This document shows positions 273 through 43,899 of a stretch of DNA of 64,000 nucleotides, one piece after another. The notes beneath the pieces are model-generated. The model saw nothing but the letters and a program-made list of their open reading frames with translations. It had not been told where the DNA came from and ran no database searches. Position 1 is the stretch's first letter, and each line of letters opens with the position of its first letter. The stretch comes from Polaribacter haliotis (GTDB taxonomy: Bacteria > Bacteroidota > Bacteroidia > Flavobacteriales > Flavobacteriaceae). Where the stretch lies: the NCBI RefSeq assembly GCF_014784055.1, contig NZ_CP061813.1, positions 3,482,001-3,546,000 on the forward strand, written 5' to 3'. The translations under genes were made by a program, and so were the position numbers.

Positions 273-3200
273 TTGGCAACGAAAAACACTACTGAAAGAA
301 TCAACTTCGCTACTTCTCAAATGATTAAAGAATATCCAGACTTTTTGGATATTCAGGTAAAGTCTTTTCAAGACTTTTTCCAGCTTCAAACAAAGGCAGA
401 AGAAAGAGGTGAAGAAGGTTTGTACAAAACCTTCATGGATAACTTTCCAATTACAGATACAAGAAATCAATTTGTATTAGAATTTTTAGACTACTTTGTA
501 GACCCACCAAGATATTCAATTCAAGAATGTATTGAGAGAGGTTTAACACACAGTGTGCCCTTAAAAGCACGTCTTAAATTGTACTGTACAGATCCTGAAC
601 ACGAAGATTTCGAAACAATTGTTCAAGATGTGTATTTGGGTACAATTCCTTATATGACTAATTCTGGAACCTTTGTAATAAATGGTGCAGAACGTGTTGT
701 GGTTTCTCAACTACATAGATCTCCGGGTGTATTCTTCGGGCAATCATTCCACGCAAATGGTACAAAATTATACTCTGCAAGAGTAATTCCTTTTAAAGGA
801 TCTTGGATAGAGTTTGCTACCGATATCAATCAAGTGATGTACGCTTATATTGATAGAAAGAAAAAATTACCAGTAACTACATTATTCAGAGCCATAGGTT
901 TTGAAAGAGACAAAGATATATTAGAAATTTTTGATCTTGCAGAAGAAGTTAAAGTTTCTAAAGCTGGATTAAAGAAAGTATTAGGAAGAAAACTTGCCGC
1001 TAGAGTTTTAAAAACTTGGCATGAAGATTTTGTAGATGAAGATACTGGAGAAGTTGTATCAATCGAAAGAAACGAAATAGTTTTCGATCGTGATACAATT
1101 TTAGAAAAAGAACATATAGATGAAATAATAGAAGCAGGTGCTAAAACGGTTTTACTTCATAAGGAAGACAACCATATGGCAGATTATGCCATTATTCATA
1201 ATACTTTACAAAAAGATCCTACAAATTCTGAAAAAGAAGCTGTAGAACATATCTATAGACAATTACGTAATGCAGAACCGCCAGATGAGGAGACTGCAAG
1301 AGGTATTATAGATAAGTTGTTCTTTTCTGAACAACGTTATAATTTGGGTGAAGTTGGTCGTTTTAGAATGAACACAAAGCTTCAGTTGAATGAGCCTATG
1401 GATCAGAAAGTATTATCGAAATTAGATATTATTACAATTATAAAATATTTAATTGAGTTAATTAATTCTAAAGCAGAGGTAGATGATATCGATCACTTAT
1501 CTAACAGACGTGTAAGAACTGTTGGAGAACAATTAGCAGGTCAGTTTGGTGTTGGTTTAGCTCGTATGGCTAGAACAATTCGTGAGCGTATGAATGTGCG
1601 TGATAACGAGGTGTTTACACCAATAGATTTGATTAATGCAAAAACATTATCATCTGTAATTAATTCATTCTTCGGAACGAATCAATTATCTCAGTTTATG
1701 GATCAAACGAATCCATTAGCGGAAATTACACACAAACGTCGTTTATCTGCACTTGGACCTGGAGGTTTATCTAGAGAAAGAGCAGGTTTTGAGGTTCGTG
1801 ATGTTCACTATACGCATTATGGGCGTTTATGTCCTATTGAAACTCCAGAGGGACCAAATATTGGTTTAATTTCTTCACTTGCAGTATTTGCAAAAGTGAA
1901 TAATTTAGGTTTTATTGAAACTCCTTATAGAAAAGTAAATGAAGGTGTTGTTGCAACTGATGAACCAATTTATTTAAGTGCTGAAGAAGAAGAAGGAATG
2001 CGTTTTGCGCAATCTAACGTTCCTGTTGATGAAAAAGGTACTTTTAAAGAAGAAAGAATAATTTCTAGAGAAGGTGGTGATTTTCCTGTTGTAACTCCGC
2101 AAGAAGTTCAATATATGGATGTTGCTCCAAATCAAATTGCATCAATATCTGCATCTTTAATTCCTTTCTTGGAACATGATGATGCCAACCGTGCATTAAT
2201 GGGATCGAACATGATGCGTCAAGCAGTTCCATTATTACGTCCAGAATCTCCAATTGTTGGAACAGGATTAGAGCGTAGAGTCGCAAAAGATTCACGTATT
2301 TTAATTAATGCTGAAGGAAATGGAGTAGTTGAGTATGTAGATGCTAATAAGATTACAATTAAATACGATAGAACTGAAGAAGAAAGAATGGTTAGTTTCG
2401 ATTCTGATGAAGTTTCTTATAATTTAATTAAATTTAGAAAAACCAATCAAGGTACTTCTATTAACTTAAAGCCGATTGTAGAAAGAGGTGATAGAGTTTC
2501 TGAAGGACAAGTTCTTTGTGAAGGTTATGCAACACAAAAAGGAGAATTAGCTTTAGGAAGAAATATGAAAGTAGCCTTTATGCCTTGGAAAGGGTATAAC
2601 TTTGAGGATGCAATTGTAATTTCTGAAAAAGTAGTTCGTGAAGATATATTTACATCTATTCATATTGATGAGTATTCTTTAGATGTTAGAGATACAAAAT
2701 TAGGAACTGAAGAGTTAACTAATGATATTCCTAACGTTTCTGAAGAAGCAACAAGCAATTTAGATGAAAATGGAATGATAAGAATTGGAGCAGAAGTAAA
2801 TCCTGGTGACATTTTAATTGGTAAAATTACACCAAAGGGAGAATCTGATCCAACTCCAGAAGAAAAATTATTACGTGCTATTTTTGGTGATAAAGCGGGT
2901 GATGTAAAAGATGCATCATTAAAAGCTTCACCATCATTAAGAGGTGTAGTAATTGATAAAAAATTATTTAAAAGAGCTGTAAAAGACAAGAACAAGAGAT
3001 TAAGAGATAAAGAAGCAGTTACTGCATTAGAATCTTCTTTTGTTTCTAAGTTTGAAGGCTTAAAAGATGAGTTAATTGAGAAATTATTCACTTTAATTAG
3101 TGGTAAAACTTCTCAAGGAGTGTTTAATGATTTAGGTGAAGAAGTATTACCAAAAGGTAAGAAATATACACTTAAAATGTTAAACTCTGTGGACGATTAT

Positions 3201-4082
3201 GTACACTTAACAGGTTCTTGGACAACAGATAAAGAATTAAACGATTATGTAGGTGAATTAGTTCACAACTACAAAATTAAAGTAAATGATTTACAAGGTT
3301 CTTTACGTCGTCAAAAATTTACAATCTCTGTAGGAGATGAATTACCAGCAGGTATTTTAAAATTAGCTAAAGTTTACATCGCTAAAAAACGTAAGTTAAA
3401 AGTTGGTGATAAAATGGCGGGACGTCATGGAAATAAAGGTATTGTTGCTCGTATTGTAAGAGCAGAAGACATGCCTTTCTTAGAGGACGGAACTCCAGTA
3501 GACATCGTTTTAAATCCTTTAGGTGTACCATCTCGTATGAATATTGGTCAAATTTATGAAACTGTTCTTGGTTGGGCAGGTCAAAAATTAGATAAAAAGT
3601 ATGCAACACCAATTTTTGATGGAGCATCTTTAGATCAAATTAATGCATATACAGATGAAGCAGGTGTACCAAGATTTGGACACACTTACTTATATGATGG
3701 AGGAACAGGTAAACGTTTCGATCAACCAGCAACAGTTGGTATTATTTATATGATTAAGTTAGGTCACATGATTGAAGATAAAATGCACGCGCGTTCTATT
3801 GGACCTTATTCATTAATTACACAACAACCATTAGGTGGTAAAGCACAATTTGGTGGTCAGCGTTTTGGAGAGATGGAAGTTTGGGCACTTGAGGCATATG
3901 GTGCGTCAAGTATCTTAAGAGAAATCTTAACTGTAAAATCGGATGATGTTATGGGAAGAGCTAAAACATACGAAAGTATTGTTAAAGGGGAGTCTATGCC
4001 AGAACCAGGTTTACCAGAATCATTTAACGTATTAATGCATGAACTTAAAGGTTTAGGTTTAGACGTTAGATTAGAAGAATAA
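273..4082 (+). CDS. rpoB: DNA-directed RNA polymerase subunit beta
   Basis: The 1269-aa beta subunit forms the catalytic core with beta' and carries the rifampicin pocket. The conserved block [16 protein letters not shown] and the following [11 protein letters not shown] lie near residues 492-530, and the C-terminal [18 protein letters not shown] region is intact. The start is TTG at 273: the next in-frame ATG would remove about 16 residues ([15 protein letters not shown]) that belong to the conserved N-terminus. No Shine-Dalgarno is seen, as is normal for Bacteroidota. It is followed by rpoC after a 78-bp gap holding a repeat-like hairpin. Confidence 0.98.
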
Positions 4083-4096
4083 ATTTTTTCAGTAAC

Positions 4097-4129
4097 CAGT
4101 TTTCAGTAGTATTATGCTACTGAAAACTG
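4097..4129. repeat. ACTG-rich intergenic inverted repeat between rpoB and rpoC
   Basis: A perfect 13-bp inverted repeat, CAGTTTTCAGTAG at 4097-4109 and its complement at 4117-4129, has a 7-base loop. It is followed by further ACTG-spaced words (ACTGAATACTGCCAACTG). The pattern of ACTGNNN words resembles the ACTG-rich intergenic repeats common in flavobacterial genomes; that resemblance is from memory. It could form a hairpin in the rpoBC transcript. Confidence 0.6.
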
Positions 4130-4160
4130 AATACTGCCAACTGAATACTTATTAAAAGAC

Positions 4161-7100
4161 ATGGCAAGAAAACAAGAGAAGTACACTGTAAAAAAGTTTA
4201 ATAAAATCTCGATTGGTTTATCATCTCCAGAAGCAATATTAGAAGCTTCTAGAGGAGAGGTGTTAAAACCAGAAACTATAAATTATCGTACACACAAACC
4301 AGAAAGAGATGGTTTATTTTGTGAGCGTATCTTTGGTCCTGTAAAGGATTACGAATGTGCTTGTGGAAAATACAAAAGAATTCGTTATAAAGGAATTGTT
4401 TGTGATAGATGTGGGGTAGAAGTAACAGAAAAGAAAGTACGTAGAGATAGAGTAGGACACATTAATTTGGTGGTTCCTGTAGCTCATATTTGGTACTTTA
4501 GATCATTACCTAACAAAATGGGATACCTTTTAGGTTTGCCATCTAAAAAGTTAGATATGATAATTTACTACGAACGTTACGTAGTAATTCAACCAGGTAT
4601 TGCAAAAGGACCTGAAGGGGAACCATTACAAAAAATGGACTTCTTAACAGAAGAAGAATATTTAGATATTGTTGATGAGTTGCCACAAGAAAATCAATAT
4701 AAAGATGATGCAGACCCAGATAAGTTTATCGCTAAAATGGGTGCAGAATGTTTAATTGATTTATTAGCACGTATCGATTTAGATGCTTTGTCTTTTGAAT
4801 TAAGACACAAAGCAAATACAGAAACGTCTAAACAACGTAAAACAGAAGCATTAAAACGTTTAAATGTTGTTGAAGCATTCAGAGACTCTCAGAAAAATAG
4901 AGAAAACAATCCTGAGTGGATGATTATGAAGGCAGTACCAGTAATTCCACCAGAATTACGTCCATTAGTGCCTTTAGATGGTGGTCGTTTCGCAACTTCA
5001 GATTTAAATGATTTATATAGAAGAGTTATTATCAGAAACAATCGTTTAAAAAGATTAGTTGAGATAAAAGCTCCTGAAGTTATTTTACGTAACGAGAAAC
5101 GTATGTTACAAGAATCTGTAGATTCATTATTTGATAACACACGTAAATCATCTGCAGTAAAAACAGAATCTAACAGACCTTTAAAATCTTTATCAGATTC
5201 TTTAAAAGGTAAACAAGGACGTTTCCGTCAGAACTTATTAGGAAAACGTGTAGATTATTCAGCACGTTCTGTAATTGTTGTTGGACCAGAATTAAAATTA
5301 TCAGAATGTGGTATCCCAAAAGATATGGCAGCTGAACTTTACAAGCCTTTTGTAATTAGAAAGCTAATTGAAAGAGGAATTGTAAAAACAGTAAAATCTG
5401 CTAAGAAAATTATAGATAGAAAAGAACCAGTTGTTTGGGATATTTTAGAAAATGTAATTAAAGGACATCCAGTTTTATTAAACAGGGCTCCTACTTTACA
5501 CAGACTAGGTATACAAGCATTCCAACCAAAATTAATTGAAGGAAAAGCAATCCAATTGCACCCGTTAGTTTGTACGGCCTTTAATGCCGATTTTGATGGA
5601 GATCAAATGGCGGTTCATTTACCATTAGGACCAGAAGCTATTTTAGAAGCGCAAATATTAATGTTGGCTTCTCATAATATCTTAAACCCTGCAAATGGTG
5701 CACCAGTAACTGTACCTTCTCAGGATATGGTATTGGGTTTATACTATATGACAAAAGAAAGAATTTCTACTCCAGAAGTACCAATTAAAGGAGAAGGATT
5801 AACTTTCTATTCACCAGAAGAAGTAACGATTGCTTTTAACGAAGAAATGGTAGACTTAAATGCTGGTATTAAAGTAAGAACTTATGATGTTGATGAAAAT
5901 GGAGAACAAGTTAGAAAAATTATAAAAACTACTGTTGGTAGAGTTTTATTTAATGAAAAAGTTCCTCCTGCTGCAGGATACATTAATGAAGTATTGACTA
6001 AGAAAAACTTACGTGGAATTATTGGTGGAATTTTAAAAGCTACTGATATTCCTACAACAGGAGAATTCTTAGATCAAATAAAAAATATGGGATATAAATT
6101 TGCCTTTCAAGGTGGTTTATCTTTCTCATTAGGGGATATTATTATTCCTGATGAAAAGCAATCTATGATTGATGAAGCTAATAAAGAAGTGGACATCATT
6201 GTAGGAAATTATAATATGGGTATGTTAACGCAAAAAGAGCGTTACAATCAGGTAATTGATGTTTGGGGATCTACCAACAATAGATTAACTGAATTATCTA
6301 TGAAGAATTTACGTGAAGACCAGCAAGGTTTTAACTCGGTTTACATGATGCTAGATTCTGGAGCAAGGGGTTCTAAAGAACAGATTCGTCAGTTAACAGG
6401 TATGCGTGGATTAATGGCAAAACCTAAAAAATCTACAGCTGGAGGTGGAGAAATTATTGAGAATCCAATTCTTTCTAACTTTAAGGAAGGGTTATCTATT
6501 CTAGAATATTTTATCTCGACTCACGGTGCACGTAAAGGATTGGCAGATACAGCTTTAAAAACGGCAGATGCTGGTTACCTAACTCGTAGATTGGTAGATG
6601 TTTCTCAAGATGTTATCATTAATGAAGAAGATTGTGGTACATTAAGAGGTTTAGAAGTAGCTCCTTTAAAGAAAAATGATGAGATTGTAGAATCTTTATC
6701 TGACAGAATTGAAGGAAGAATTTCTTTAAACAATGTTTATCATCCTTTAACAGATGAGCTACTATTAGAAGCAAATCAAGCAATTACTTCTCAATTAGCA
6801 GATGCAGTTGATAAGTCTGGAATTGATAGTGTAGAAGTAAGATCTCCATTGTCATGTGAGTCTTCAAGAGGTATTTGTGCAAAATGTTACGGACAGAGTT
6901 TATCTACCCGTAATAAAGTACAAATTGGTGAAGCAGTTGGTGTAATTGCAGCACAATCTATTGGAGAGCCAGGTACACAGTTAACATTACGTACATTCCA
7001 CGTTGGTGGGGTTGCAGGTAATATTTCTGAAGATAACAAGCTTGTTGCAAAGTTCGATGGTAATGTAACAATAGAAGATTTAAGAACAGTAATAGGTAAA

Positions 7101-10396: not shown

Positions 10397-10470
10397 GGGC
10401 TCTTAGCTCAGCTGGATAGAGCACCTCCCTTCTAAGGAGGCGGTCGAAGGTTCGAATCCTTCAGGGCTCA
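10397..10470 (+). tRNA. tRNA-Arg (anticodon TCT)
   Basis: A 74-base tRNA with acceptor GGGCTCT pairing with AGGGCTC (two G:U pairs). The anticodon stem CCTCC/GGAGG encloses CTTCTAA, giving anticodon TCT (arginine, AGA codons). The T arm carries GGTTCGAATCC. Its 3' half is the prophage attachment core, so the functional 3' end is supplied by the phage copy of that sequence. Confidence 0.96.
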
Positions 10471-10480
10471 CTTAAAGCTT
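10429..10480 (+). repeat. Prophage attachment core, left copy (attL)
   Basis: The 52 bases from the anticodon loop of tRNA-Arg through the first part of the terminator hairpin are repeated exactly at 42478-42529. The repeat restores the tRNA after integration, as is typical for tyrosine-recombinase phages that use tRNA genes. Confidence 0.93.
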
Positions 10481-10503
10481 TACTGTAATGGTAAAGCTTT
10501 TTT
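10474..10503 (+). terminator. Terminator after tRNA-Arg
   Basis: AAAGCTTTAC at 10474-10483 pairs perfectly with 10491-10500 and is followed by T residues. The left arm is partly inside the attachment core, so integration replaces part of the hairpin; the right end (42521-42547) rebuilds a similar one. Confidence 0.8.
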
Positions 10504-10591: not shown

Positions 10592-11821
10592 ATGAATGGT
10601 AAAATAAGATTAGATACCAGAAAGAATCAAGAGAGAAAAGAAGGGTTTCCTGTTGTGGTTTTCTTGAACCATAAAGGTAAGCAGAAAAACGTGAGTTTGG
10701 GTGTTTATTTTCATTTAAAGGATTGGGATTTAAAAAACCAAATGCCAATTAAAAACCCTAAAATGGCTTTATTTGTTAGAAAGAAACAATTATTGTTAGA
10801 TGAAATTGTTTTTGATTATAAAACTACCAGAAAAGCGAATTTAGAAAGCGCAAAAAAAATATTATTAGGTGGTAGTGGTTTTACTAATATTGTTTCTTTC
10901 TATGAGTTTTACGAATCTTACTTATCTGAATTAACTGCTGCGCAAAAAAAATCTACTCACAATATTTATAAAACTGCTTTAGATCAATTAAAAAAATATA
11001 GAACTAATTTAGATTTTACAGATGTAGACTATTCTACTTTAAATGGTTTTAAAGATTGGCGTATTTCTTTGGGTAATTCTAAATCTACTGTACATACTTA
11101 TTTACGTAAAATTAGAACAGTTTATAATGAAGCTGTAAGGCGTGGGGTTGCAAAAGACACAAAACCATTTGATGGAGTTTTTAAAGGAATTACTGTAAAG
11201 AGTAACAGAACTAAAAAACGAAATATTACAAAAGAATCTATAGTTAAATTAGAAAATGCAATGTTGCGTTTAGATGGTAAGGGTAATAAATTGGTTGCGC
11301 CAAAAAAATTACCAATGTATCACCAAAGGGCAATAGATTTGTGGTTGTTGTTGTTTTACTTTGGTGGGCAAGATTTAAAAGATGTATATTATCTGGAGTA
11401 TAAAAACATTAATAATGGTAGGGTGTATTTTACCAGGAGTAAATTAGCTGGTTCTGGTTATCAGTTCGATTTGAAAATTGTACCAAAGGCGCAAAAAATT
11501 ATTGATAAGTATAAAGTAAAAGGTAAATATCTGTTTCCTTGGCCTAAAGATTTTGATTCTTACAAATCTTTTAGAGATAATTTAAGAAGGTCTTTAGATT
11601 TTGTTCAGAAGCAGGAAAAAATAGAAGTATTGCCATTAGGTGGGCAAATTAGAATTAAAGTTGCGCGCCATACTTTTGCTACTTTGGGTAAAAATTTATT
11701 TTTAGATAGCGATTTATTACGTGAGTTAATGGGCCATGAAAGAAATGATGTAGATACTATTTACAAAGATAAATATCCAGAAATATTGCGTGATGAAGCG
11801 CATTTAAAAATTATTGAATAA
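10592..11821 (+). CDS. int: Prophage tyrosine integrase
   Basis: A 409-aa phage integrase expected to recombine the tRNA-Arg attachment core. An N-terminal arm-type DNA-binding domain covers roughly residues 1-95, a core-binding SAM-like domain roughly 100-195, and the catalytic domain 205-409. The second Arg (R359 in KVARHTFAT), the GH motif (H382) and the nucleophile (Y391) are visible. Two deviations: the usual Arg I position reads FGGQD (G258-Q260) with no Arg, and the box II His is Lys (K356). Loss of Arg I has a precedent in IntDOT of CTnDOT. It lies directly beside the attachment core. Confidence 0.92.
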   Translation: MNGKIRLDTRKNQERKEGFPVVVFLNHKGKQKNVSLGVYFHLKDWDLKNQMPIKNPKMALFVRKKQLLLDEIVFDYKTTRKANLESAKKILLGGSGFTNIVSFYEFYESYLSELTAAQKKSTHNIYKTALDQLKKYRTNLDFTDVDYSTLNGFKDWRISLGNSKSTVHTYLRKIRTVYNEAVRRGVAKDTKPFDGVFKGITVKSNRTKKRNITKESIVKLENAMLRLDGKGNKLVAPKKLPMYHQRAIDLWLLLFYFGGQDLKDVYYLEYKNINNGRVYFTRSKLAGSGYQFDLKIVPKAQKIIDKYKVKGKYLFPWPKDFDSYKSFRDNLRRSLDFVQKQEKIEVLPLGGQIRIKVARHTFATLGKNLFLDSDLLRELMGHERNDVDTIYKDKYPEILRDEAHLKIIE

Positions 11822-18459: not shown

Positions 18460-20199
18460 ATGAATATTCCAGGCAACATACAAAACTCAATTCCTTTTCA
18501 ATATGCAGCAGATGTAAAATCTGGTAAAATTGTTTGTGGTTTAAGAATTAAGCAAGCAATAGATAGGTTTTATAAATTAATTAATACTGCAGAATCTAAA
18601 GGTTATTGGTTGGACCATTCTAAAGGTTTTGCAATTATTCGTTTTTTTGAAAAAATTCTAAAACATACAAAAGGAAAGTCTGCAGGTCAACCTTTTATTT
18701 TATCACCATATCAACAATTCACTTTATATAATTTATTTGCTTGGCAAACCAAAAACGAAGAAGGCCAAACAATAAGATTAATTAGGAATGTTTATCAGAA
18801 AGTAGGTAAAAAGAACGGTAAGACTGCAGAACTATCTGGAGTTGGTTTATTTGTAAAAGCGTTTGATGGAGAAGAAGGTGCAGAAGTTTATGTTGGGGCT
18901 ACAAAAGAAGAACAGGCAAAACTATGTTTTCAGCAAGCGTGTGATTTTATTCAAAAATCTACAATACTTCAAAACATTGGTTTTAAGGTTTATCAAAAAG
19001 AAATAAAGTTTCTTCCAAAATCTGCTTTTATGAGGCCTTTGGGTGGAGATTCAAAAACGCAAGATGGAATTAATTCACATTTAACAATTATAGATGAATA
19101 TCATGCTCATAAAGATGATTCAGTAAAAGAAAATTTAGAAAGTTCTTCAGCAAGTAGATTACAGCCAATAACCTACACAATAACAACTGCAGGAACAAAT
19201 GTGCATGGAGTTTGTAAAAATTTCGAAGATAGTTGTATTAATATTTTAGAAGGAGTTGCAGAAGATGATACTTTTTTAATAATGATACATGATCTAGATG
19301 AAGATGATGATTGGCAAGATCCAAAATGTTGGGTAAAAGCAAACCCTAATTTAGGTGTAACTGTTTCAGTGGATTTTTTACAAAAAGAATATCAAAAAAC
19401 AGTAAACCAGCCAAGTAAAATACCCAACTTTCAAACAAAGCATTTAAACATGTGGGTAGATGCACCAACGGTTTGGGTAGAAAGCAAGTATTGGAACAAT
19501 TGTATGGTTCCAATAAAATACGAAAACTTTGCAAAATTAGGCAATTGTGGTGGGTTAGATTTAAGTTCTACTACAGATATTACAGCTTTCGCAGTTGTAA
19601 GTGAGCCAGATTCAGAAGGTTTTAGAGATGTAGATGTTTGGTGTTTTTGTCCTTTAGATACCATTGAAAAAAGGAGTAAAGAAGATAGAGTTCCTTATAG
19701 GTATTGGTCTAATTTAAAAAGAGAAAATGCAGTAGATAAAAATGATACATATTTAATTGCAACGCCTGGCAATATGGTAGATTATAATGTTGTTTTTAAT
19801 AAAGTTGTTCAAATTGTTTCCGAAAGGAAAACAAAACATGTAGAATATGATAGAAAGTTTTCTGCAGGTTTAATTTCTCCGCTTCAAGAAGCAGGAGTTG
19901 AGTTATCACCTTTTACACAAACTTTAATGAATTACACAAGTCCTACAAAAGAGTTTGAACGTTTAATTATGTCAGGAAAATTAAGAGTAGGTAATAATCC
20001 TATTTTAAAATGGATGCTTTCTGGTTGTGTTCCTATTTACGATACAAATGAAAATGTAAGGTTGGATAAATCAAGGTCAACAAAAAGAATTGATGCAATG
20101 ATTGCTATAATTGAAGCAATTGCAGGAACATTATCTGAAGAAAAAGAACCAGAAACATCAAAATATAATGATCCTTCAGTAGAGATCACTTTAGGTTAA
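18460..20199 (+). CDS. terL: Phage terminase large subunit (Terminase_1)
   Basis: A 579-aa packaging motor. The ATPase has a Walker A-like KVGKKNGKTAELSG near residues 120-133 and Walker B LTIIDEYHAH near 208-217. The nuclease part shows GGLDLSSTTDITAF near 364 and late acidic residues around YDRKFSA and RIDAMIAII. It is full length. Portal normally follows directly, but here 5.5 kb intervene, and the first cassette core begins at this gene's stop codon (GGTTAA). Confidence 0.93.
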   Translation: MNIPGNIQNSIPFQYAADVKSGKIVCGLRIKQAIDRFYKLINTAESKGYWLDHSKGFAIIRFFEKILKHTKGKSAGQPFILSPYQQFTLYNLFAWQTKNEEGQTIRLIRNVYQKVGKKNGKTAELSGVGLFVKAFDGEEGAEVYVGATKEEQAKLCFQQACDFIQKSTILQNIGFKVYQKEIKFLPKSAFMRPLGGDSKTQDGINSHLTIIDEYHAHKDDSVKENLESSSASRLQPITYTITTAGTNVHGVCKNFEDSCINILEGVAEDDTFLIMIHDLDEDDDWQDPKCWVKANPNLGVTVSVDFLQKEYQKTVNQPSKIPNFQTKHLNMWVDAPTVWVESKYWNNCMVPIKYENFAKLGNCGGLDLSSTTDITAFAVVSEPDSEGFRDVDVWCFCPLDTIEKRSKEDRVPYRYWSNLKRENAVDKNDTYLIATPGNMVDYNVVFNKVVQIVSERKTKHVEYDRKFSAGLISPLQEAGVELSPFTQTLMNYTSPTKEFERLIMSGKLRVGNNPILKWMLSGCVPIYDTNENVRLDKSRSTKRIDAMIAIIEAIAGTLSEEKEPETSKYNDPSVEITLG

Positions 20200-20286
20200 A
20201 AAAAGCACCAAAGGCATCATATAAATTTAACTTTAATAATGTCGCTAGTTATACGGTTTGTTTTAACCGCTGGAGGTGCTTTTAAC
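20196..20286 (+). other. First, ORF-less cassette unit
   Basis: It begins at the terL stop (GTTAAAAAAAGCACC) and ends with GGTGCTTTTAAC at 20275-20286. The two ends are complementary apart from three extra A residues. No ORF of useful size is inside its 91 bp. Confidence 0.5.
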
Positions 20287-20487
20287 GACTAAGTATATGA
20301 TTTGATTTTTAACGGACAAAAAAAGCACTTATGAATAAACTAAATAAATTAATAATACACTCTTTAATGAATGCGATGTACGATAGAGAAAAAGACCTAC
20401 ACCCTGCTGATGCTTATAAATTAGCAAGTAGATTGATGGCTAACGATGAAACAGTTAAAAATTTAATTATATACATTGTTAGCACAC
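20284..20487 (+). repeat. attC-like site with coding loop (unit 1)
   Basis: Core AAC at 20284, left arm GTATATGATTTGATTTTT at 20293-20310, right arm AAAAATTTAATTATATAC at 20457-20474 (14 of 18 complementary plus G:T pairs), and core GTTAGCACAC at 20478-20487. The first part of the 79-aa ORF lies in the loop between the arms. Confidence 0.6.
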
Positions 20488-20570
20488 GTACTATTTCAAA
20501 ATATTGGATGTACTCTGCTTTGTTTGGTTTAGGATATATTTTAGTAGACATTATTATGTATGTGTGCTAA
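20331..20570 (+). CDS. Cassette protein 1, small membrane protein
   Basis: A 79-aa protein. Residues 1-45 (DREKDLHPADAYKLASRL) are helical and the C-terminus (WMYSALFGLGYILVDIIMY) is a likely membrane segment. The coding sequence runs through the right arm and GTT core of an attC-like site and its TAA stop is part of the GTGTGCTAAC end core. Function unknown. Confidence 0.55.
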   Translation: MNKLNKLIIHSLMNAMYDREKDLHPADAYKLASRLMANDETVKNLIIYIVSTRTISKYWMYSALFGLGYILVDIIMYVC

Positions 20571-20691
20571 CGAAATGTATATGGTTAGGCGTTTTTCCGC
20601 AGGAAAAATGGCTGACAAGGAATTAAAAATGAAAGAATAATATAAACAATAACTGCCAGTTTACGCTTAATTATATACGGTGTTGGCAGTA
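20562..20691 (+). repeat. attC-like site between cassettes 1 and 2
   Basis: GTGTGCTAAC (20562-20571), left arm GTATATGGTTAGGCGT (20577-20592), right arm ACGCTTAATTATATAC (20663-20678) and GTTGGCAGTA (20682-20691). The arms match at 13 of 16 positions, with G:T pairs at the rest. Its length of 130 bp is within the range of integron attC sites. Confidence 0.7.
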
Positions 20692-20706
20692 GTTAAATTT
20701 TTAGAA

Positions 20707-20925
20707 ATGAAAACATATTTATTAGTAAAACTAAAAGAAGAAATACGTGTTAATGGTGGTTGTTCTCCTGATGATCCTGAATTTGCTTATGTGGTAGGTG
20801 ATTGTTTAAAAAGCACTGGAGAGTATTTTGTGGATAAAAAAGAAGCTCTTAAAAAAGCAAAAGAAAAAACTTTAAAGAATTTAGAAAAAGAAGCGTTTGG
20901 TGTAATTAAAATTGATATGCCTTAA
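20707..20925 (+). CDS. Cassette protein 2
   Basis: A 72-aa protein, MKTYLLVKLKEEIRV..., with a lysine-rich helical second half (KKEALKKAKEKTLKNLEKEA). The ATG at 20707 is chosen over a GTG at 20680 because the latter would read through the GTT core. The 250-bp unit body is bounded by GTTGGCAGTA and TACTGCCAAC. Function unknown. Confidence 0.55.
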   Translation: MKTYLLVKLKEEIRVNGGCSPDDPEFAYVVGDCLKSTGEYFVDKKEALKKAKEKTLKNLEKEAFGVIKIDMP

Positions 20926-20926
20926 T

Positions 20927-20992
20927 TACTGCCAACGTACTTGTATATGGTGCGTTTGAGGTACGAAAATGCATTATATACGGTGTTATGCA
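20927..20992 (+). repeat. attC-like site between cassettes 2 and 3
   Basis: TACTGCCAAC (20927-20936), left arm GTATATGGTGCGTTT (20943-20957), right arm AAAATGCATTATATAC (20966-20981) and GTTATGCA (20985-20992). At 66 bp it is the most compact complete site in the array. Confidence 0.75.
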
Positions 20993-21647
20993 TCTGTAAA
21001 ATTTTAAAAAGGGCGTGGCTTTGCAAAAGCCAAATTAACGAGAATATTAATAATTAAATAAATATAAAAATGGGAACAAGACACAGACAAGCAGTAATTA
21101 CAAAAGAAGGTGATTTAAAAATTCAACAATACGGACAATGGGATGGTTATCCTGATGGACAAGGAAAGGATATTTTAAACTATTTAAGAAATGGCGATTT
21201 AGATAGGTACCAAGAAAACTTAAATAAAATACCTCTTATAAATGACGAGCAAATTGATGAAGTTAATAAAGATAGTAATTGGACTAAAAACTATCCTTAT
21301 TTGAGCCGTGATTGTGGTAGTAATATACATCAAATGATTGAATACGGTGTTGTGAAATTTGTACAACATACAGATTTAGAAGAATGCCAAAAATGGTGCG
21401 AAGGTTTCTATACCATAGATTTTCAAAAAGGCGTGTTTATTACCGAATATTATGATAACACAGTTGAGTTTGATTTAAAGAAATTACCAACCGAAGAAGA
21501 GTATTTAAAAGCGTTTGTAACTGAAGATGAAGATGCTTAATGAAAAGTCTAAATATTGCCTTTATATAAGTATAAGGGCAGTTTTTAGACACGTAAGAGT
21601 GAGTGCGTTTGAGTGGTCGCCCTTTTTAAAATTTTATTGTGCATAAC
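20985..21647 (+). repeat. Cassette 3 body with about 30-bp terminal inverted repeats
   Basis: The first 31 bp (20985-21015) and last 30 bp (21618-21647) are inverted copies: GTTATGCA, then a 3-4-base mismatch, then TAAAATTTTAAAAAGGGCG. This is far longer than the core match of other units. Confidence 0.7.
21070..21540 (+). CDS. Cassette protein 3
   Basis: A 156-aa soluble protein starting MGTRHRQAVITKEGDLKIQQ with QWDGYPDGQGKDIL close behind. This opening (tRHrq... QYGQWDGYP) recurs, as far as I recall, in small uncharacterised phage and bacterial proteins, but I cannot name a family. It is the largest ORF of the array and sits between the long terminal inverted repeats. Confidence 0.65.
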   Translation: MGTRHRQAVITKEGDLKIQQYGQWDGYPDGQGKDILNYLRNGDLDRYQENLNKIPLINDEQIDEVNKDSNWTKNYPYLSRDCGSNIHQMIEYGVVKFVQHTDLEECQKWCEGFYTIDFQKGVFITEYYDNTVEFDLKKLPTEEEYLKAFVTEDEDA

Positions 21648-21670
21648 GTATTAGGTATGGTTAGTTGCGT
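21640..21670 (+). repeat. Half attC-like site before cassette 4
   Basis: TGCATAAC core (21640-21647) followed by a left arm GTATGGTTAGTTGCG. No right arm or GTT core follows before the next ORF, so the gene follows the half-site directly. Confidence 0.55.
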
Positions 21671-21697
21671 GTTAAATAATAAATAAAACAAATAAAA

Positions 21698-21937
21698 ATG
21701 GATATAGTAAAAGACTTAAATAAATTAATAGACGATTGCACTGAAAATGAAATAGATTTTAAAGATTTGTACTATGAACTGATTTCTTTGAGAGAAAAAT
21801 ATAGTAAGCAATTAACTATACCTGTTGTTGGTAAATCGTTTTATTGCGTTGATAATGACAAAAGCGATGGTTTGGTAGAAAGTTGCGAAAACCAATGTAC
21901 AGGGTGTTATGTTTATATAAAAGGGTTTAAGCAATAA
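21698..21937 (+). CDS. Cassette protein 4
   Basis: A 79-aa protein, MDIVKDLNKLIDDCTENEID..., acidic and helical at the start with a Cys-containing end (ESCENQCTGCYVYIKG) that may bind metal. Its leader is AT-rich (AATAAATAAAACAAATAAAA), suitable for Bacteroidota initiation. Function unknown. Confidence 0.55.
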   Translation: MDIVKDLNKLIDDCTENEIDFKDLYYELISLREKYSKQLTIPVVGKSFYCVDNDKSDGLVESCENQCTGCYVYIKGFKQ

Positions 21938-22006
21938 TATGTTTACCAACTTATTTGTATAAGAAATGTTGCGATTAAAAAACTAATATTTAATAAATAA
22001 GAACAG

Positions 22007-22114
22007 ATGTTTACAGCACTTACAATAGGAATAGCATATCTGATAGCAAAAAAACTTGACGATGCAGGAGATTACAAAACCCCGAAAGGGAAAGACAAGA
22101 ACCGATATAAATAA
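22007..22114 (+). CDS. Loop ORF of the repeat unit, copy 1 (35 aa)
   Basis: MFTALTIGIAYLIAKKLDDA then a Lys-rich tail ending KNRYK. It has a short hydrophobic start and a basic C-terminus, and the same peptide is encoded in all three copies. The ORF lies wholly within the hairpin loop of the attC-like site. Small enough that it may not be expressed. Confidence 0.45.
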   Translation: MFTALTIGIAYLIAKKLDDAGDYKTPKGKDKNRYK

Positions 22115-22166
22115 TCACAAACCCGAGCAATGTTTTTTATACGTTGTTCTAAAATGTTAACCAAAA

Positions 22167-22307
22167 ATGACCGATTTAGAAAAAAAACTACTTAACCGAG
22201 TTAAAGAATTAGAAGATAAAGAAGCAATTAGCGACCAAGCAATAAATGGGTGCTTGCCTTTAGGTTTAATATTAATTGGCATAGTTGCACTGCTTATTTT
22301 TGGTTAA
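22167..22307 (+). CDS. 46-aa membrane peptide of the repeat unit, copy 1
   Basis: MTDLEKKLLNRVKELEDKEA, a short linker, then a membrane segment GLILIGIVALLIFG at the very C-terminus: a helical charged head with a tail anchor. Encoded three times. It lies between the complementary cores GTTCTAAAA and TTTTAGAAC. Function unknown. Confidence 0.5.
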   Translation: MTDLEKKLLNRVKELEDKEAISDQAINGCLPLGLILIGIVALLIFG

Positions 22308-22309
22308 TT

Positions 22310-22444
22310 TTTTAGAACGGCAAAGTATAAGATTTCGGTTGCGTTTAGGCGACTGGCTTAATTAAATGTGAGTTACTCTGATTAATGCGGAAGCCTTACA
22401 GACAATGACAAACTAAGCAACTGAATTTTATACATTGTTACCTA
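22310..22444 (+). repeat. attC-like site after repeat copy 1
   Basis: TTTTAGAAC (22310-22318), left arm GTATAAGATTTCGGTTGC (22325-22342), right arm GCAACTGAATTTTATAC (22417-22433) and GTTACCTA (22437-22444). The arms pair with one bulge. Loop without a clear ORF. Confidence 0.7.
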
Positions 22445-22477
22445 TTGTGGCGACTTGATAAACTAAAAATTTGATAA

Positions 22478-22726
22478 ATGACTGAATTAAATAAAAAATA
22501 CGAGCCAAATGGAACTAAGGAAGAAGTTATGTTAGGGATTTTGCATAATGAAAATGGCTATTATATAAGCAATGAAGGAACTAAACAAAAACCAAACTTT
22601 CACGTATGGATTCCTGACATAACGTGTGCGGTTATAGATAGTGCTTATGTAGATATAACACTTTCGGTTGCTAGATGTAATTATTTGGCGAAAAATAAAA
22701 TTAAGGCACGTTACCAGCCATTGTAG
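22478..22726 (+). CDS. Cassette protein 6
   Basis: An 82-aa protein, MTELNKKYEPNGTKEEVMLG..., mixed alpha/beta with IPDITCAVIDSAYVDITLSVA. Its TAG stop is part of the TAGGTAAC end core, the exact complement of the GTTACCTA at the start of the unit. Function unknown. Confidence 0.55.
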   Translation: MTELNKKYEPNGTKEEVMLGILHNENGYYISNEGTKQKPNFHVWIPDITCAVIDSAYVDITLSVARCNYLAKNKIKARYQPL

Positions 22727-22756
22727 GTAACGTTCTGCGTGTAAGTTTAGTTGCGT
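22724..22756 (+). repeat. Half attC-like site before cassette 7
   Basis: TAGGTAAC core (22724-22731) followed by GTGTAAGTTTAGTTGCG. No right arm or GTT core before the next ORF. Confidence 0.5.
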
Positions 22757-22787
22757 AAATTAATAAATTACTTAAATAAAAATACAA

Positions 22788-23009
22788 ATGATTGATATAA
22801 ATAAATTGCAAGAAATTACAGAAAAATTAAATAGAAGCAAACTACTAAAAGGTGTAGCTTATGATGTTTTAAATACTTTTATAGAACAGCAAAAAGAGCA
22901 ATTAAATTTACACGATGTTGATAAATGTGTTTTATGTAAAAACAAAACAGACAAGCCAACAATTAATTATTGCGACGAGTGTTTAGAAAATTACAATGGT
23001 ATTGAATAA
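22788..23009 (+). CDS. Cassette protein 7, zinc-ribbon-like
   Basis: A 73-aa protein with a helical first half and two CxxC pairs (CVLCKNKTDKP, NYCDEC) that form a probable zinc ribbon at the C-terminus. It starts after an AT-rich leader following a half-site and ends just before TTTTTACCAAC. Function unknown. Confidence 0.6.
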   Translation: MIDINKLQEITEKLNRSKLLKGVAYDVLNTFIEQQKEQLNLHDVDKCVLCKNKTDKPTINYCDECLENYNGIE

Positions 23010-23013
23010 AACA

Positions 23014-23049
23014 TTTTTACCAACGTGGTTGGTGTATGATTTGTAGCGT
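23014..23049 (+). repeat. Half attC-like site before cassette 8
   Basis: TTTTTACCAAC (23014-23024) followed by GTGTATGATTTGTAGCG. Same organisation as the half-sites before cassettes 4 and 7. Confidence 0.5.
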
Positions 23050-23075
23050 AGAATTAATAAAATTAATTAGTAAAA

Positions 23076-23327
23076 ATGGACGAAATAATAGAATATTTAG
23101 AAAAAAAGATAAAAGCCTGTGATGAATTAGGTGGTATGCAATTAGAAAAATTTGCTTTTGTAGTAACCTTAAAAAAAGTGCGCAAAATAGCTATGAATTA
23201 TACACCTTGTTGTATGAGCGAAGCTGAACAGTTATTTGCTTTTTTTATGTGGTTTAGAGAAAACTCTGAAAAGCACATTGGCGAAAGTATAGAAGATATG
23301 ATTGATGCATATATTAAAAGCAAATAA
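23076..23327 (+). CDS. Cassette protein 8
   Basis: An 83-aa helical protein, MDEIIEYLEKKIKACDELGG..., with CCMSEAEQLFAFFMWFRENSE in the second half. The unit ends 11 bp after its stop at TTGCATACAAC. Function unknown. Confidence 0.55.
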   Translation: MDEIIEYLEKKIKACDELGGMQLEKFAFVVTLKKVRKIAMNYTPCCMSEAEQLFAFFMWFRENSEKHIGESIEDMIDAYIKSK

Positions 23328-23394
23328 TTGCATACAACTTATTTGTATAAGAAATGTTGCGATTAAAAAACTAATATTTAATAAATAAGAACAG

Positions 23395-23502
23395 ATGTTT
23401 ACAGCACTTACAATAGGAATAGCATATCTGATAGCAAAAAAACTTGACGATGCAGGAGATTACAAAACCCCGAAAGGGAAAGACAAGAACCGATATAAAT
23501 AA
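23395..23502 (+). CDS. Loop ORF of the repeat unit, copy 2 (35 aa)
   Basis: Same 35-aa peptide as at 22007, in the hairpin loop of copy 2. Confidence 0.45.
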   Translation: MFTALTIGIAYLIAKKLDDAGDYKTPKGKDKNRYK

Positions 23503-23554
23503 TCACAAACCCGAGCAATGTTTTTTATACGTTGTTCTAAAATGTTAACCAAAA

Positions 23555-23695
23555 ATGACCGATTTAGAAAAAAAACTACTTAACCGAGTTAAAGAATTAG
23601 AAGATAAAGAAGCAATTAGCGACCAAGCAATAAATGGGTGCTTGCCTTTAGGTTTAATATTAATTGGCATAGTTGCACTGCTTATTTTTGGTTAA
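23555..23695 (+). CDS. 46-aa membrane peptide of the repeat unit, copy 2
   Basis: Same tail-anchored 46-aa peptide as at 22167, between the GTTCTAAAA core (23534) and the TTTTAGAAC core (ending 23706). Confidence 0.5.
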   Translation: MTDLEKKLLNRVKELEDKEAISDQAINGCLPLGLILIGIVALLIFG

Positions 23696-23696
23696 T

Positions 23697-23910
23697 TTTT
23701 TAGAACTTATTTGTATAAGAAATGTTGCGATTAAAAAACTAATATTTAATAAATAAGAACAGATGTTTACAGCACTTACAATAGGAATAGCATATCTGAT
23801 AGCAAAAAAACTTGACGATGCAGGAGATTACAAAACCCCGAAAGGGAAAGACAAGAACCGATATAAATAATCACAAACCCGAGCAATGTTTTTTATACGT
23901 TGTTCTAAAA
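23697..23910 (+). repeat. Complete attC-like site across repeat copies 2 and 3, with ORF in loop
   Basis: TTTTAGAAC at the end of copy 2, left arm GTATAAGAAATGTTGC, a loop with the 35-aa ORF, right arm GCAATGTTTTTTATAC and GTTCTAAAA of copy 3 (23902-23910). A circularised single unit would carry exactly this site. Confidence 0.6.
23763..23870 (+). CDS. Loop ORF of the repeat unit, copy 3 (35 aa)
   Basis: Same 35-aa peptide as at 22007, in the hairpin loop of copy 3. Confidence 0.45.
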   Translation: MFTALTIGIAYLIAKKLDDAGDYKTPKGKDKNRYK

Positions 23911-23922
23911 TGTTAACCAAAA

Positions 23923-24063
23923 ATGACCGATTTAGAAAAAAAACTACTTAACCGAGTTAAAGAATTAGAAGATAAAGAAGCAATTAGCGACCAAGCAATA
24001 AATGGGTGCTTGCCTTTAGGTTTAATATTAATTGGCATAGTTGCACTGCTTATTTTTGGTTAA
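23923..24063 (+). CDS. 46-aa membrane peptide of the repeat unit, copy 3
   Basis: Same tail-anchored 46-aa peptide as at 22167, here the last ORF before the recombinase. Confidence 0.5.
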   Translation: MTDLEKKLLNRVKELEDKEAISDQAINGCLPLGLILIGIVALLIFG

Positions 24064-24124
24064 TTTTTTAGAACACCTATATAGAAACCACCACTACCAA
24101 ACCCAACTATAAAAAGAAAAAACT

Positions 24125-24919
24125 ATGAAATCTGTAGAAATTTACAAACAAAAATTAACAAATAAAAACTATTCAAAAAGGACAATAGAAACGTATGTAT
24201 GTTATTTAGAAAAGTTTCTTCAAGAAATAAAGAAGAATCCATATCATATAACAACAAAAGAAATTGAAAACTATTTACTAAACAAAAACTACAGTTCAAT
24301 ATCTGTGCAAAACCAGGTAATAGGTAGTTTAAAGTTATTTGCAAAATACATTTTAGGAAAAAAAGAAGTTCACTTAAATAAAATCGAAAGACCAAAAAGA
24401 GAAAAAAAACTACCTAGAATAATAGATGCAGAATTGTTAGCAGAAAGAATTTCTATGGTTAAAAATCTAAAACACAAAGCTATATTAACATTAGGTTTAA
24501 GTTGTGGATTGCGAATAAGCGAAGTAATAAATTTAAAATGGTTAGATCTCGATAAAAAAAGAAATGTATTAAATGTAATAAACGGAAAAGGGAAAAAAGA
24601 CCGAATTACATTTTTAAACAATAATTTAATTGAGTTACTTACAGAATATTGGTTAGAATATAGATCAGAAGAATATGTCTTTAACGGCCAATTTAAAAAC
24701 CAATATTCTGCAACAAGTATACAAAGATTAGTAAAAAAATACATTCACCCAACAGCTTCTTTTCATTTATTAAGGCACTCTTTTGCAACCTATGCATTAG
24801 ATAACGGAACAGGTATTGGAGCCTTGGCAGATATTATGGGCCACAATAGTATAAAGACTACAGAAATATATTATCACACTTCATTAAAAGCAGTTCAAAA
24901 TCTAAAGCAAGTTATCTAA
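24125..24919 (+). CDS. XerC/D-like tyrosine recombinase next to cassette array
   Basis: A 264-aa tyrosine recombinase. A SAM-like N-terminal domain covers about residues 1-80 and the catalytic domain 100-264. The full catalytic set is visible: R130 (GLRISEV), Lys in NGKGKKDR near 155-157, H214 and R217 (FHLLRHSFAT), H240 (MGHNS) and Tyr 249/250. The region between boxes II and III is short, so the extra helix typical of integron IntI is absent. It lies downstream of the array and reads in the same direction. It is the best candidate to move the cassettes; the alternative is a phage dimer-resolution enzyme. Confidence 0.9.
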   Translation: MKSVEIYKQKLTNKNYSKRTIETYVCYLEKFLQEIKKNPYHITTKEIENYLLNKNYSSISVQNQVIGSLKLFAKYILGKKEVHLNKIERPKREKKLPRIIDAELLAERISMVKNLKHKAILTLGLSCGLRISEVINLKWLDLDKKRNVLNVINGKGKKDRITFLNNNLIELLTEYWLEYRSEEYVFNGQFKNQYSATSIQRLVKKYIHPTASFHLLRHSFATYALDNGTGIGALADIMGHNSIKTTEIYYHTSLKAVQNLKQVI

Positions 24920-25168
24920 ATGCAGCAATCACCAGAACAATTTAAACAAATAATAGAAGCAAAAGTGTTACCTATAGCGCAACAATTAGGAACTAGACAA
25001 GGTTTTTTTGAATATTGGTTTAAAATATTACCAAGATGCAAAAGTCACAAAGCAGCGTTCGATTTAACCAACCTTTTATATTTAAAAATTTTTAAAGAAC
25101 AAAAATACACTTCTTTTGATTCTTTTAGGAATCAAAAGAACACGTATTTAAAAAAAATAAGAAGATGA
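24920..25168 (+). CDS. Phage protein downstream of recombinase (82 aa)
   Basis: Starts at the base after the recombinase stop, so it is tightly coupled. MQQSPEQFKQIIEAKVLPIA opens an alpha-helical, basic protein ending TYLKKIRR. Not recognised; it could be an accessory factor of the recombinase. Confidence 0.55.
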   Translation: MQQSPEQFKQIIEAKVLPIAQQLGTRQGFFEYWFKILPRCKSHKAAFDLTNLLYLKIFKEQKYTSFDSFRNQKNTYLKKIRR

Positions 25169-42705: not shown

Positions 42706-43899
42706 ATGAATAACTATAAGTTAGCAATACTTTTTTTCTTAAAAAGAAATAAGATAAATAAAATGGGTAAATGTCCAATAAGATGCAGAATTACATTTTT
42801 AAAAAGTAGAAAAGAATTCTCTACAGGAATATTTATCAATCCAGATTATTGGCATAGTGGTAAACAGAAAGCTTTACCAGATAGCAAAGAAAACAACATT
42901 TTAAACAACAAATTAAGCCTTATTCGTCAACAGATAGATAAGGCTTTTTTAATGCTTCAAATCTTACCCAATAACTTTGATGTAGATGATATTTATAGAA
43001 AATATAAAGGAGAAGATTCTAAAGAAGAAATTACAATTTTAGGAGCATATGATTTACATAACCAGAAGACAGAAAAATTAATAGGTATAGACTTTAATAA
43101 GTTGTCTTGGAGTAGGTATGTGGAAAGTAGAAGAAAAGTAGCACTATTTATTACTAAATTCTACAAAAGAAAAGACGTAAGGTTAAAAGATTTAGATTTA
43201 AAGTTTATACAAGATCTAGAATATTTCTTTAAAACAGATTTAAAACTAAAACAAGCTACTGTTTATAGGAGTATTCAAAGAGTAAAGAAAATTATTCAGT
43301 TTGCTATTTCAGAAAATTATCTGAAGAAAGACCCATTTCACTTATATAAAAATAAGAAGTTTAAAACTGTAATTATTTATTTGACTGATGAAGAATTAAA
43401 AAAGTTAGAAAAGCATAATTTTAGTCAAGAGAGATTACAACAAGTAAAAGATTTGTTTATTTTTTGCTGTTATACAGGTTTAGCGTATACAGAAATGTCA
43501 ACTTTGTCGACTAAAAATATTGAAATTGGTTTTGATGGTAAAGAGTGGATTCAGATGGTTCGTAAGAAAACTGGCAGAAAAATATCCATTCCAATTTTAC
43601 CAAAAGCAAGAGAGGTTTTAGATAAATACAATGACAAGTTGCCAACTTTAAGTAACCAAAAGTTCAATTCTTATTTAAAGGAGATTTCGGAATTAATTGG
43701 AATTGATAAAAAATTGACACATCATACAGCGAGAAAGACCTTTGCAACAACAGTACTCTTATTTAATAATGTACCAATGGAAATTGTATCGGAATTATTG
43801 GGGCATTCTAATATGAATGTTACACAATCTCACTATGGTAAAGTTGTACAGAAGAAAGTTAGTGATGAGGTTGAGGTTCTTAAAAAACGGTTAAAATAA
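42706..43899 (+). CDS. Tyrosine integrase of the second island (IntDOT-like)
   Basis: A 397-aa integrase with the Bacteroidota mobile-element layout: an arm-binding N-terminal domain (MGKCPIRCRITFLKSRKEFS, residues 20-55), a core-binding domain about 110-215, and a catalytic domain. H340 and R343 (HTARKTFAT), H367 (LLGHSN) and Y377 (SHYGK) are visible. The Arg I position is Ala (YTGLAYTEM, A260), as IntDOT also lacks this Arg. It lies right next to attR, so the island behind it probably uses the same tRNA-Arg locus. Confidence 0.9.
   Translation: MNNYKLAILFFLKRNKINKMGKCPIRCRITFLKSRKEFSTGIFINPDYWHSGKQKALPDSKENNILNNKLSLIRQQIDKAFLMLQILPNNFDVDDIYRKYKGEDSKEEITILGAYDLHNQKTEKLIGIDFNKLSWSRYVESRRKVALFITKFYKRKDVRLKDLDLKFIQDLEYFFKTDLKLKQATVYRSIQRVKKIIQFAISENYLKKDPFHLYKNKKFKTVIIYLTDEELKKLEKHNFSQERLQQVKDLFIFCCYTGLAYTEMSTLSTKNIEIGFDGKEWIQMVRKKTGRKISIPILPKAREVLDKYNDKLPTLSNQKFNSYLKEISELIGIDKKLTHHTARKTFATTVLLFNNVPMEIVSELLGHSNMNVTQSHYGKVVQKKVSDEVEVLKKRLK

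Follow-up and report, generated by a model that had tools for sequence, protein, structure and literature searches.

Integrons are defined by the integrase IntI, a tyrosine recombinase. An insertion that distinguishes this enzyme has been called essential for integron function (PMC8138268), a survey with IntegronFinder 2 reported one complete integron in Bacteroidetes proper (PMC9024848), and a screen of 10,705 phage genomes with IntI and attC models returned 3 complete integrons, 1 In0 and 17 clusters of attC sites lacking an integrase (CALINs; PMC9892861). Here, we analyzed a stretch of 64,000 nt from Polaribacter haliotis (contig NZ_CP061813.1, positions 3,482,001 to 3,546,000; hereafter the window), in which a prophage carries eleven cassette units followed by the gene of a tyrosine recombinase (TR). 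We put at roughly 85% the probability that this is an integron-like system for cassettes, borne by the phage and operated by a recombinase other than IntI. The literature searched (open-licence papers, preprints not included) yielded no integron of a phage or flavobacterium with such a recombinase, and the system is likely to be novel.

A cassette array and its recombinase between terL and portal

The host genome is complete (3.8 Mb, single contig), and the prophage extends from 10429 to 42539 of the window, flanked by a 62-nt repeat of a tRNA-Arg end. A preliminary description of the sequence had placed an array of eleven AAC-type cores between terL and portal, with five units opening in a GTT core that is the exact reverse complement of their own end core and with TR starting 50 bp past the last core. 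All of this was borne out: the array and TR lie between both genes, the eleven AAC ends are at 20286, 20571, 20936, 21647, 21950, 22318, 22731, 23024, 23338, 23706 and 24074, and in addition to the five named pairs, four more are exact over 8-9 bp (21827/21950, 23209/23338, 23534/23706 and 23902/24074). Thus, in 9/11 units, the GTT and AAC cores at both ends are exact inverted copies over 8-10 bp. Three units are identical 368-bp copies, two next to TR and one further in, and are therefore not independent of each other. The array closes in a half-site 50 bp before the TR start. The features are as follows, with open reading frame abbreviated as ORF.

18460..20199, + strand: terL, left neighbour (PF03354, PF20441); its stop codon and the first GTT core (20195) overlap
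20195..20286, + strand: unit 1, a remnant at the distal end with no clear ORF; only 7 bp of its core exact, by eye
20287..20571, + strand: unit 2; AAC| half-site, ORF 20331-20570, GTT core 20478, end core 20562-20571; exact 10-bp core, 6-bp arm
20572..20936, + strand: unit 3; GTT core 20682, ORF 20707-20925; exact 10-bp core, arm
20937..21647, + strand: unit 4; GTT core 20985, ORF 21070-21540; exact 8-bp core, arm
21648..21950, + strand: unit 5; ORF 21698-21937 crosses its own GTT core at 21827; exact 9-bp core, arm
21951..22318, + strand: unit 6, 368-bp cassette copy A (repeat D1); GTT core 22146; exact 9-bp core
22319..22731, + strand: unit 7; GTT core 22437, ORF 22478-22726; exact 8-bp core; phrog_20712
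22732..23024, + strand: unit 8; ORF 22788-23009; core located near 22918, 8 of 9 bp matching, by eye
23025..23338, + strand: unit 9; ORF 23076-23327 crosses its own GTT core at 23209; exact 8-bp core, 7-bp arm
23339..23706, + strand: unit 10, 368-bp cassette copy B; GTT core 23534
23707..24074, + strand: unit 11, 368-bp cassette copy C, adjoining attI; GTT core 23902
24072..24090, + strand: attI-like half-site AAC|ACCTATATAGAAACCA, the conserved motif, scoring 10 of 14 and lying 50 nt before TR
24125..24919, + strand: TR, 264 aa, XerA-like, without the IntI insertion (PF00589, PF13495)
24920..25168, + strand: right neighbour; relatives without the insertion have a homologue of it 15-16 nt after terL

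In five relatives (L217, L219-L222; terL 83-86% identical), a homologue of the ORF after TR begins 15-16 nt after the terL stop, with 45-47 of 82 residues matching. Since these five have terL directly beside this homologue, the array and TR entered the gap as one insertion. By eye, attC-like sequence was seen at the same place in L223/L224, L225, L227 and L269, the last of which has a TR relative (42%) about 7 kb further on.

TR belongs to a clade of recombinases without the IntI insertion

Against the IntI profile (TIGR02249), TR scores 128 bits, with a cut-off of 265 and a true IntI reaching 394 as a yardstick, and the insertion in the catalytic domain is missing in the aligned TRs. No recombinase above the IntI cut-off was found in the host genome. 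The best profile is that of XerA (NF040815), for which TR reaches 170 bits and the five TRs scanned 146-188, all below the cut-off of 220. In a tree built from a selection of 84 rows (without the broken L059 and L064), the array TRs together with L124 form one clade (SH-like approximate likelihood ratio test support 96, and 99 in a second build), and IntI forms another with support of 100. The structural model of TR has a predicted local distance difference test score of 89.9; in Foldseek, XerA (5hxy) ranks 1 and IntI (2a3v) ranks 4, with 2a3v having the higher template modelling score of both.

A conserved attI-like motif accompanies the clade

TR and an alignment of 38 TRs were used as queries against IMG/VR and bacterial genomes, from which 72 loci were assembled: 64 of at least 80 viral loci, 7 of at least 79 genome loci, and the window. 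Left out were the duplicates L040 and L042 as well as L055, L065, L076, L078-L080, L082, L085, L090, L105, L110, L113, L118 and L119, mostly with TR near a contig edge. The position of attI was picked by motif scoring and set by hand for L056-L058, L081 and L106. The motif AAC|TATTATATATAAAC was found upstream of TR with a score of at least 10 of 14 in 78% of the 72 loci compared to 0.7% of random windows, at a distance of 36-52 nt from the TR start in most loci, with clusters at 36, 42 and 51-52 nt. Within the TR clade it occurs in 56/71 loci, and outside the clade in 3/70 and 2/26 (the set of 26 not being re-oriented). The sequence to the left of the attI AAC is variable and that to its right is conserved, as expected of an attI next to which different cassettes have entered. 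An attI next to the integrase, as in IntI integrons, is thus present. TR arrays were also found away from the terL-portal gap, in L041, L043, L044 and Polaribacter phage Freya, ruling out that the system is peculiar to this gap.

Matching cores and hairpin sites across loci

For the core test, L124 (which has the motif) and L127 were left out, and 63 of the remaining 70 loci were kept, selected for being unique and long enough. In 42 of the 63, the 9-mer that ends in the attI AAC has an exact reverse-complement match 60-1300 bp upstream, compared to a mean of 1.6 and a maximum of 6 when cores were swapped between loci (200 swaps); at k=10, 29/63 loci matched their own core versus a mean of 0.65 with swapped ones. 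This across-locus test, rather than the one within the window, is the decisive one: a chance origin of the cores is ruled out by the swapped-core control, not by the window alone.

The preliminary description had named hairpins no better than shuffled sequence as a result that would count against it. Of 48 openings that had been picked by core match only, 50% have a correctly spaced hairpin arm of 7 bp or more, compared to 0.7% in shuffles. The anatomy of the sites was read from 173 of 341 candidates that passed the filter (57 loci), a set picked for stems of at least 6 and thus no test of hairpins: AAC is separated from the first arm by about 5 nt, a loop lies between the arms, and the second arm is separated from GTT by about 2 nt. 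Site lengths lie around 40, 80, 117 and 190. Core matching and stems together identify the sequences between cassettes as attC-type imperfect palindromes with GTT/AAC cores. Folding yielded z-scores of -1.95 for the coding strand, -1.36 for the other strand and -0.50 for random windows.

Whole cassettes are gained and lost at AAC

Ten isolates of Freya carry a TR of the same clade, 39.7% identical to that of the window, and their ten records show seven array states, with every junction at AAC| and 3-4 nt shared. Six of the nine other isolates match Freya_10 exactly from the integrase round to the array; in Freya_2, 4 and 6, the first difference is one base elsewhere, and for these three the further comparison covers the 8 kb before the integrase. 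Relative to Freya_10, the sequence missing between a core AAC and attI amounts to 4942 bp in Freya_1, 4100 in Freya_2-4, 3198 in Freya_5 and 307 in Freya_9; in Freya_8, the missing 902 bp lie between two AAC that are both internal. In Freya_6/7, the edge is that of Freya_5, and a 472-bp unit is present that does not occur in Freya_10. The paper describing these phages reports a range of genome sizes, and the words integron and cassette do not occur in its text as available (PMC8776804).

From attI onward, the viral contigs L092 and L096 are identical over 2647 bp; before attI, they show no similarity. Compared to L096, L093 has 797 bp extra exactly at AAC|attI, and the last 359 bp of L092 and L094 are common before the two diverge at ATAAC. 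Both comparisons, of isolates and of contigs, thus reveal the gain and loss of whole cassettes at the core that is known from IntI integrons. Instead of relatives sharing the whole region unchanged, which the preliminary description had named as contrary evidence, cassettes vary and the terL gap is empty in close relatives.

In phage Danklef (same genus; L214 is Danklef_5 and L215 is Danklef_1), the annotated integrase is a remnant of 132 bp, and over 9001 bp the array region does not differ between the two isolates compared, an observation in favor of the proposed system.

Cassette genes face the recombinase

The longest ORF reads toward TR in 156/168 units, away from it in 5, and is lacking in 7 (156/161 ORF-bearing units), so phage cassettes do not follow the rule of IntI integrons that genes face away from attI. 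Since 59 of the 156 TR-facing ORFs cross a GTT core, only a cut at AAC keeps these 59 genes whole. Furthermore, the 368-bp copies agree from AAC to AAC in three contexts and then differ in the sequence that follows. The ordinary G|TT cut is ruled out in the phages by these copies, flush at AAC, by the Freya junctions and by the ORFs crossing the GTT core. The earlier reading therefore needs one correction: the cut is at the AAC end and the cassette genes face the recombinase, so that, with respect to its genes, the device mirrors a classical integron. Viewed on the opposite strand, the layout is the usual one, with a recombinase leaving attI, G|TT and cassettes, and the genes are turned round.

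Related arrays in flavobacterial chromosomes

Flavobacterial chromosomes encode related recombinases with a length of about 380 aa, most of them sharing 38-42% identity with TR. Among 26 of 29 such loci (those with at least 450 bp after the stop), a GTT core within 170 nt past the stop with a partner further on was found in 20 at k=9 and 18 at k=10, with control means of 1.28 and 0.59. The host chromosome itself (G000:C1, about 2004120-2008905; L002, L277) encodes a XerA-like recombinase of 389 aa; behind it come an attI-like sequence and five chained cassettes of ordinary polarity. Chains start from attI in this genome, G236 and G222; in G040, G021 and G127, the chain starts at a distance of 5-11 kb and is perhaps detached.

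In these arrays, 24/26 genes (six stretches) read away from attI, and the spacers are mostly 3 and 5-6 nt, the mirror of 5 and 2 in the phages. A duplicated unit in G236 is identical over 774 nt from one GTT to the next and over 1 nt to the left, which is the ordinary cut. Phage and chromosomal data differ in duplicates, spacers and gene direction, and it is on these that the two polarities rest.

Among more distant relatives, 8/59 (L128, L159 and six others, including Caldisericum and Clostridiales metagenome-assembled genomes) are positive in the test for downstream cores at k=10, where the control mean is 0.45, and the arrangement may reach beyond Bacteroidota.

A model for the array and its alternatives

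In the mechanism that we propose, the short XerA-like TR, presumably the enzyme that moves the cassettes, would recombine the half-site beside its own gene (attI, AAC|TATTATATA-like) with the hairpin attC-like sites between cassettes, so that an AAC|...AAC| unit could leave or enter, alone or with neighbours. New units would enter next to the recombinase, one folded DNA strand would take part, units would travel as circles, and the two copies beside attI would be recent entries. What the comparisons made here establish at the level of DNA is the site anatomy, the conserved attI, gain and loss of units at AAC, the one-piece insertion and the reversed gene polarity. The tests that we ran support gene capture by a phage-borne, integron-like device with a non-IntI recombinase, as the preliminary description had proposed, the role of TR as its enzyme being inferred.

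Several observations weigh against this reading. An exact 9-bp core is missing in 21/63 loci, with 11 lacking even 7 bp, and L041 and L043 are among the loci without one at the attI-proximal unit; the 472-bp cassette of Freya_6/7 has no exact core either (6 bp). The core signal from the window alone is moderate: when the repeat is counted once, an exact 8-bp partner is present for 9 AAC ends (shuffle mean 1.79, maximum 7 in 300 shuffles), and several AT-rich trinucleotides score 10-13 there as mock cores. The strand preference in folding is small. The Freya junctions depend on the assemblies as deposited, and the Danklef evidence comes from a single pair of isolates. A joint clade of TRs and IntI is not rejected (approximately unbiased test, without L013 and L138, p 0.61), and we do not claim a separate origin from IntI. 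Finally, catalysis by TR has been inferred, not shown.

An alternative is that the array is a CALIN, with cassettes of chromosomal integrons moved in trans by another integrase and TR a mere neighbour. Such arrays have been reported in phages, together with recombination by IntI1 of five out of six attC sites from phages, including one of Polaribacter phage P12002L (PMC9892861). No integrase is annotated in P12002L; moreover, the TR relative on the host chromosome, with its own array, might act in trans. Nevertheless, we regard this as unlikely: no match exceeds the IntI cut-off in the host genome, TR lies 50 bp from the last core where a CALIN has no integrase beside its array, the attI motif is tied to the TR clade, held at its distance before TR in most loci and rare beside other recombinases, and TR arrays recur in different phages and places.

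Even less probable is that TR is an ordinary lysogeny integrase, the array incidental, and the losses homologous or illegitimate deletions between repeats. The arrays do hold repeated sequence, and TR is the only integrase in the table of the Freya paper, as far as the available excerpt goes (PMC8776804). However, the prophage of the window has a separate integrase (10592-11821) adjoining the att repeat at 10429-10490 on the attL side, beside tRNA-Arg, while TR lies 13.6 kb inside the prophage and not at its attachment site, and the Freya junctions share 3-4 nt, all at AAC. We give least credence to the idea that the leaders repeated between moron genes act as promoters or terminators and not as recombination sites. 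In its favor, the leaders of the units are alike and AT-rich, and hairpins are located between genes; yet the cores differ between units and match at both ends of each unit, and whole units come and go at AAC. The sites may also serve as leaders within the cassette system that we favor.

Just outside the right prophage repeat, a further tyrosine recombinase of 397 aa is encoded at 42706-43899 of the window, perhaps part of an older element at the same tRNA.

Cassette cargo and introns

Of 135 cassette proteins (a selection of ORFs from the polarity set plus nine added), few had Pfam matches: 3 to N6/N4 methylases, 2 to YopX and one each to fifteen other families, further methylases among them. 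PHROGs and PADLOC matches also point to DNA methyltransferases. The cargo thus appears to consist mostly of small proteins of unassigned kind together with some orphan DNA methyltransferases, for which a role in counter-defence would be a guess. L041 contains three identical group II intron blocks of 1858 bp (486-2343, 2784-4641 and 4953-6810), each in GT|T of a different core.

Relation to known systems and implications

Like IntI integrons, the locus has an integrase beside attI, small cassettes in an array, GTT/AAC cores within imperfect palindromes, cassettes whose start and end come from one palindrome, and entry next to the integrase. It differs in that TR is not IntI by cut-off, clade and insertion, in phage genes that face attI, and in the cut at AAC. 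The phage integrons and CALINs of Qi et al. share attC arrays and DNA methyltransferase cassettes, and a P12002L cassette has the same anatomy; in the available text, a recombinase other than IntI is not named (PMC9892861). In that methyltransferase cassette of a published CALIN phage (L201, 29237-30011, minus strand), the core is exact over 9 bp and the arm is 7 bp long, both being of the same type as here. In the chromosomal integrons of Treponema, integrase and cassette genes share one direction, which also holds for the chromosomal arrays described here; the Treponema integrons are IntI-based, whereas the phage arrays lie before the recombinase with genes facing attI (PMC3607928). TR resembles XerA-like recombinases in best profile, best Foldseek rank and size, and differs from them in scoring below the cut-off and in being tied to cassette arrays instead of a single site. 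The introns of L041 parallel attC-targeting group II introns (PMC4424553) in their insertion in GT|T of three cores; they differ from the system itself in being passengers that recognise the sites.

Taken together, Bacteroidota probably harbor a second integron line run by XerA-like recombinases without the IntI insertion, of ordinary polarity in chromosomes and mirrored in phages, where the cut would be at AAC and cassettes would be swapped in nature, so that phage genes and chromosomal cassette pools would be joined in one trade. Tools that demand IntI probably label such loci CALINs or miss them. If our reading is true, a recombinase clade without the insertion called essential would show what attC recombination needs. 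Freya, with ten public genomes, is a ready natural experiment, and the cassette trade between phages and flavobacteria would become testable.

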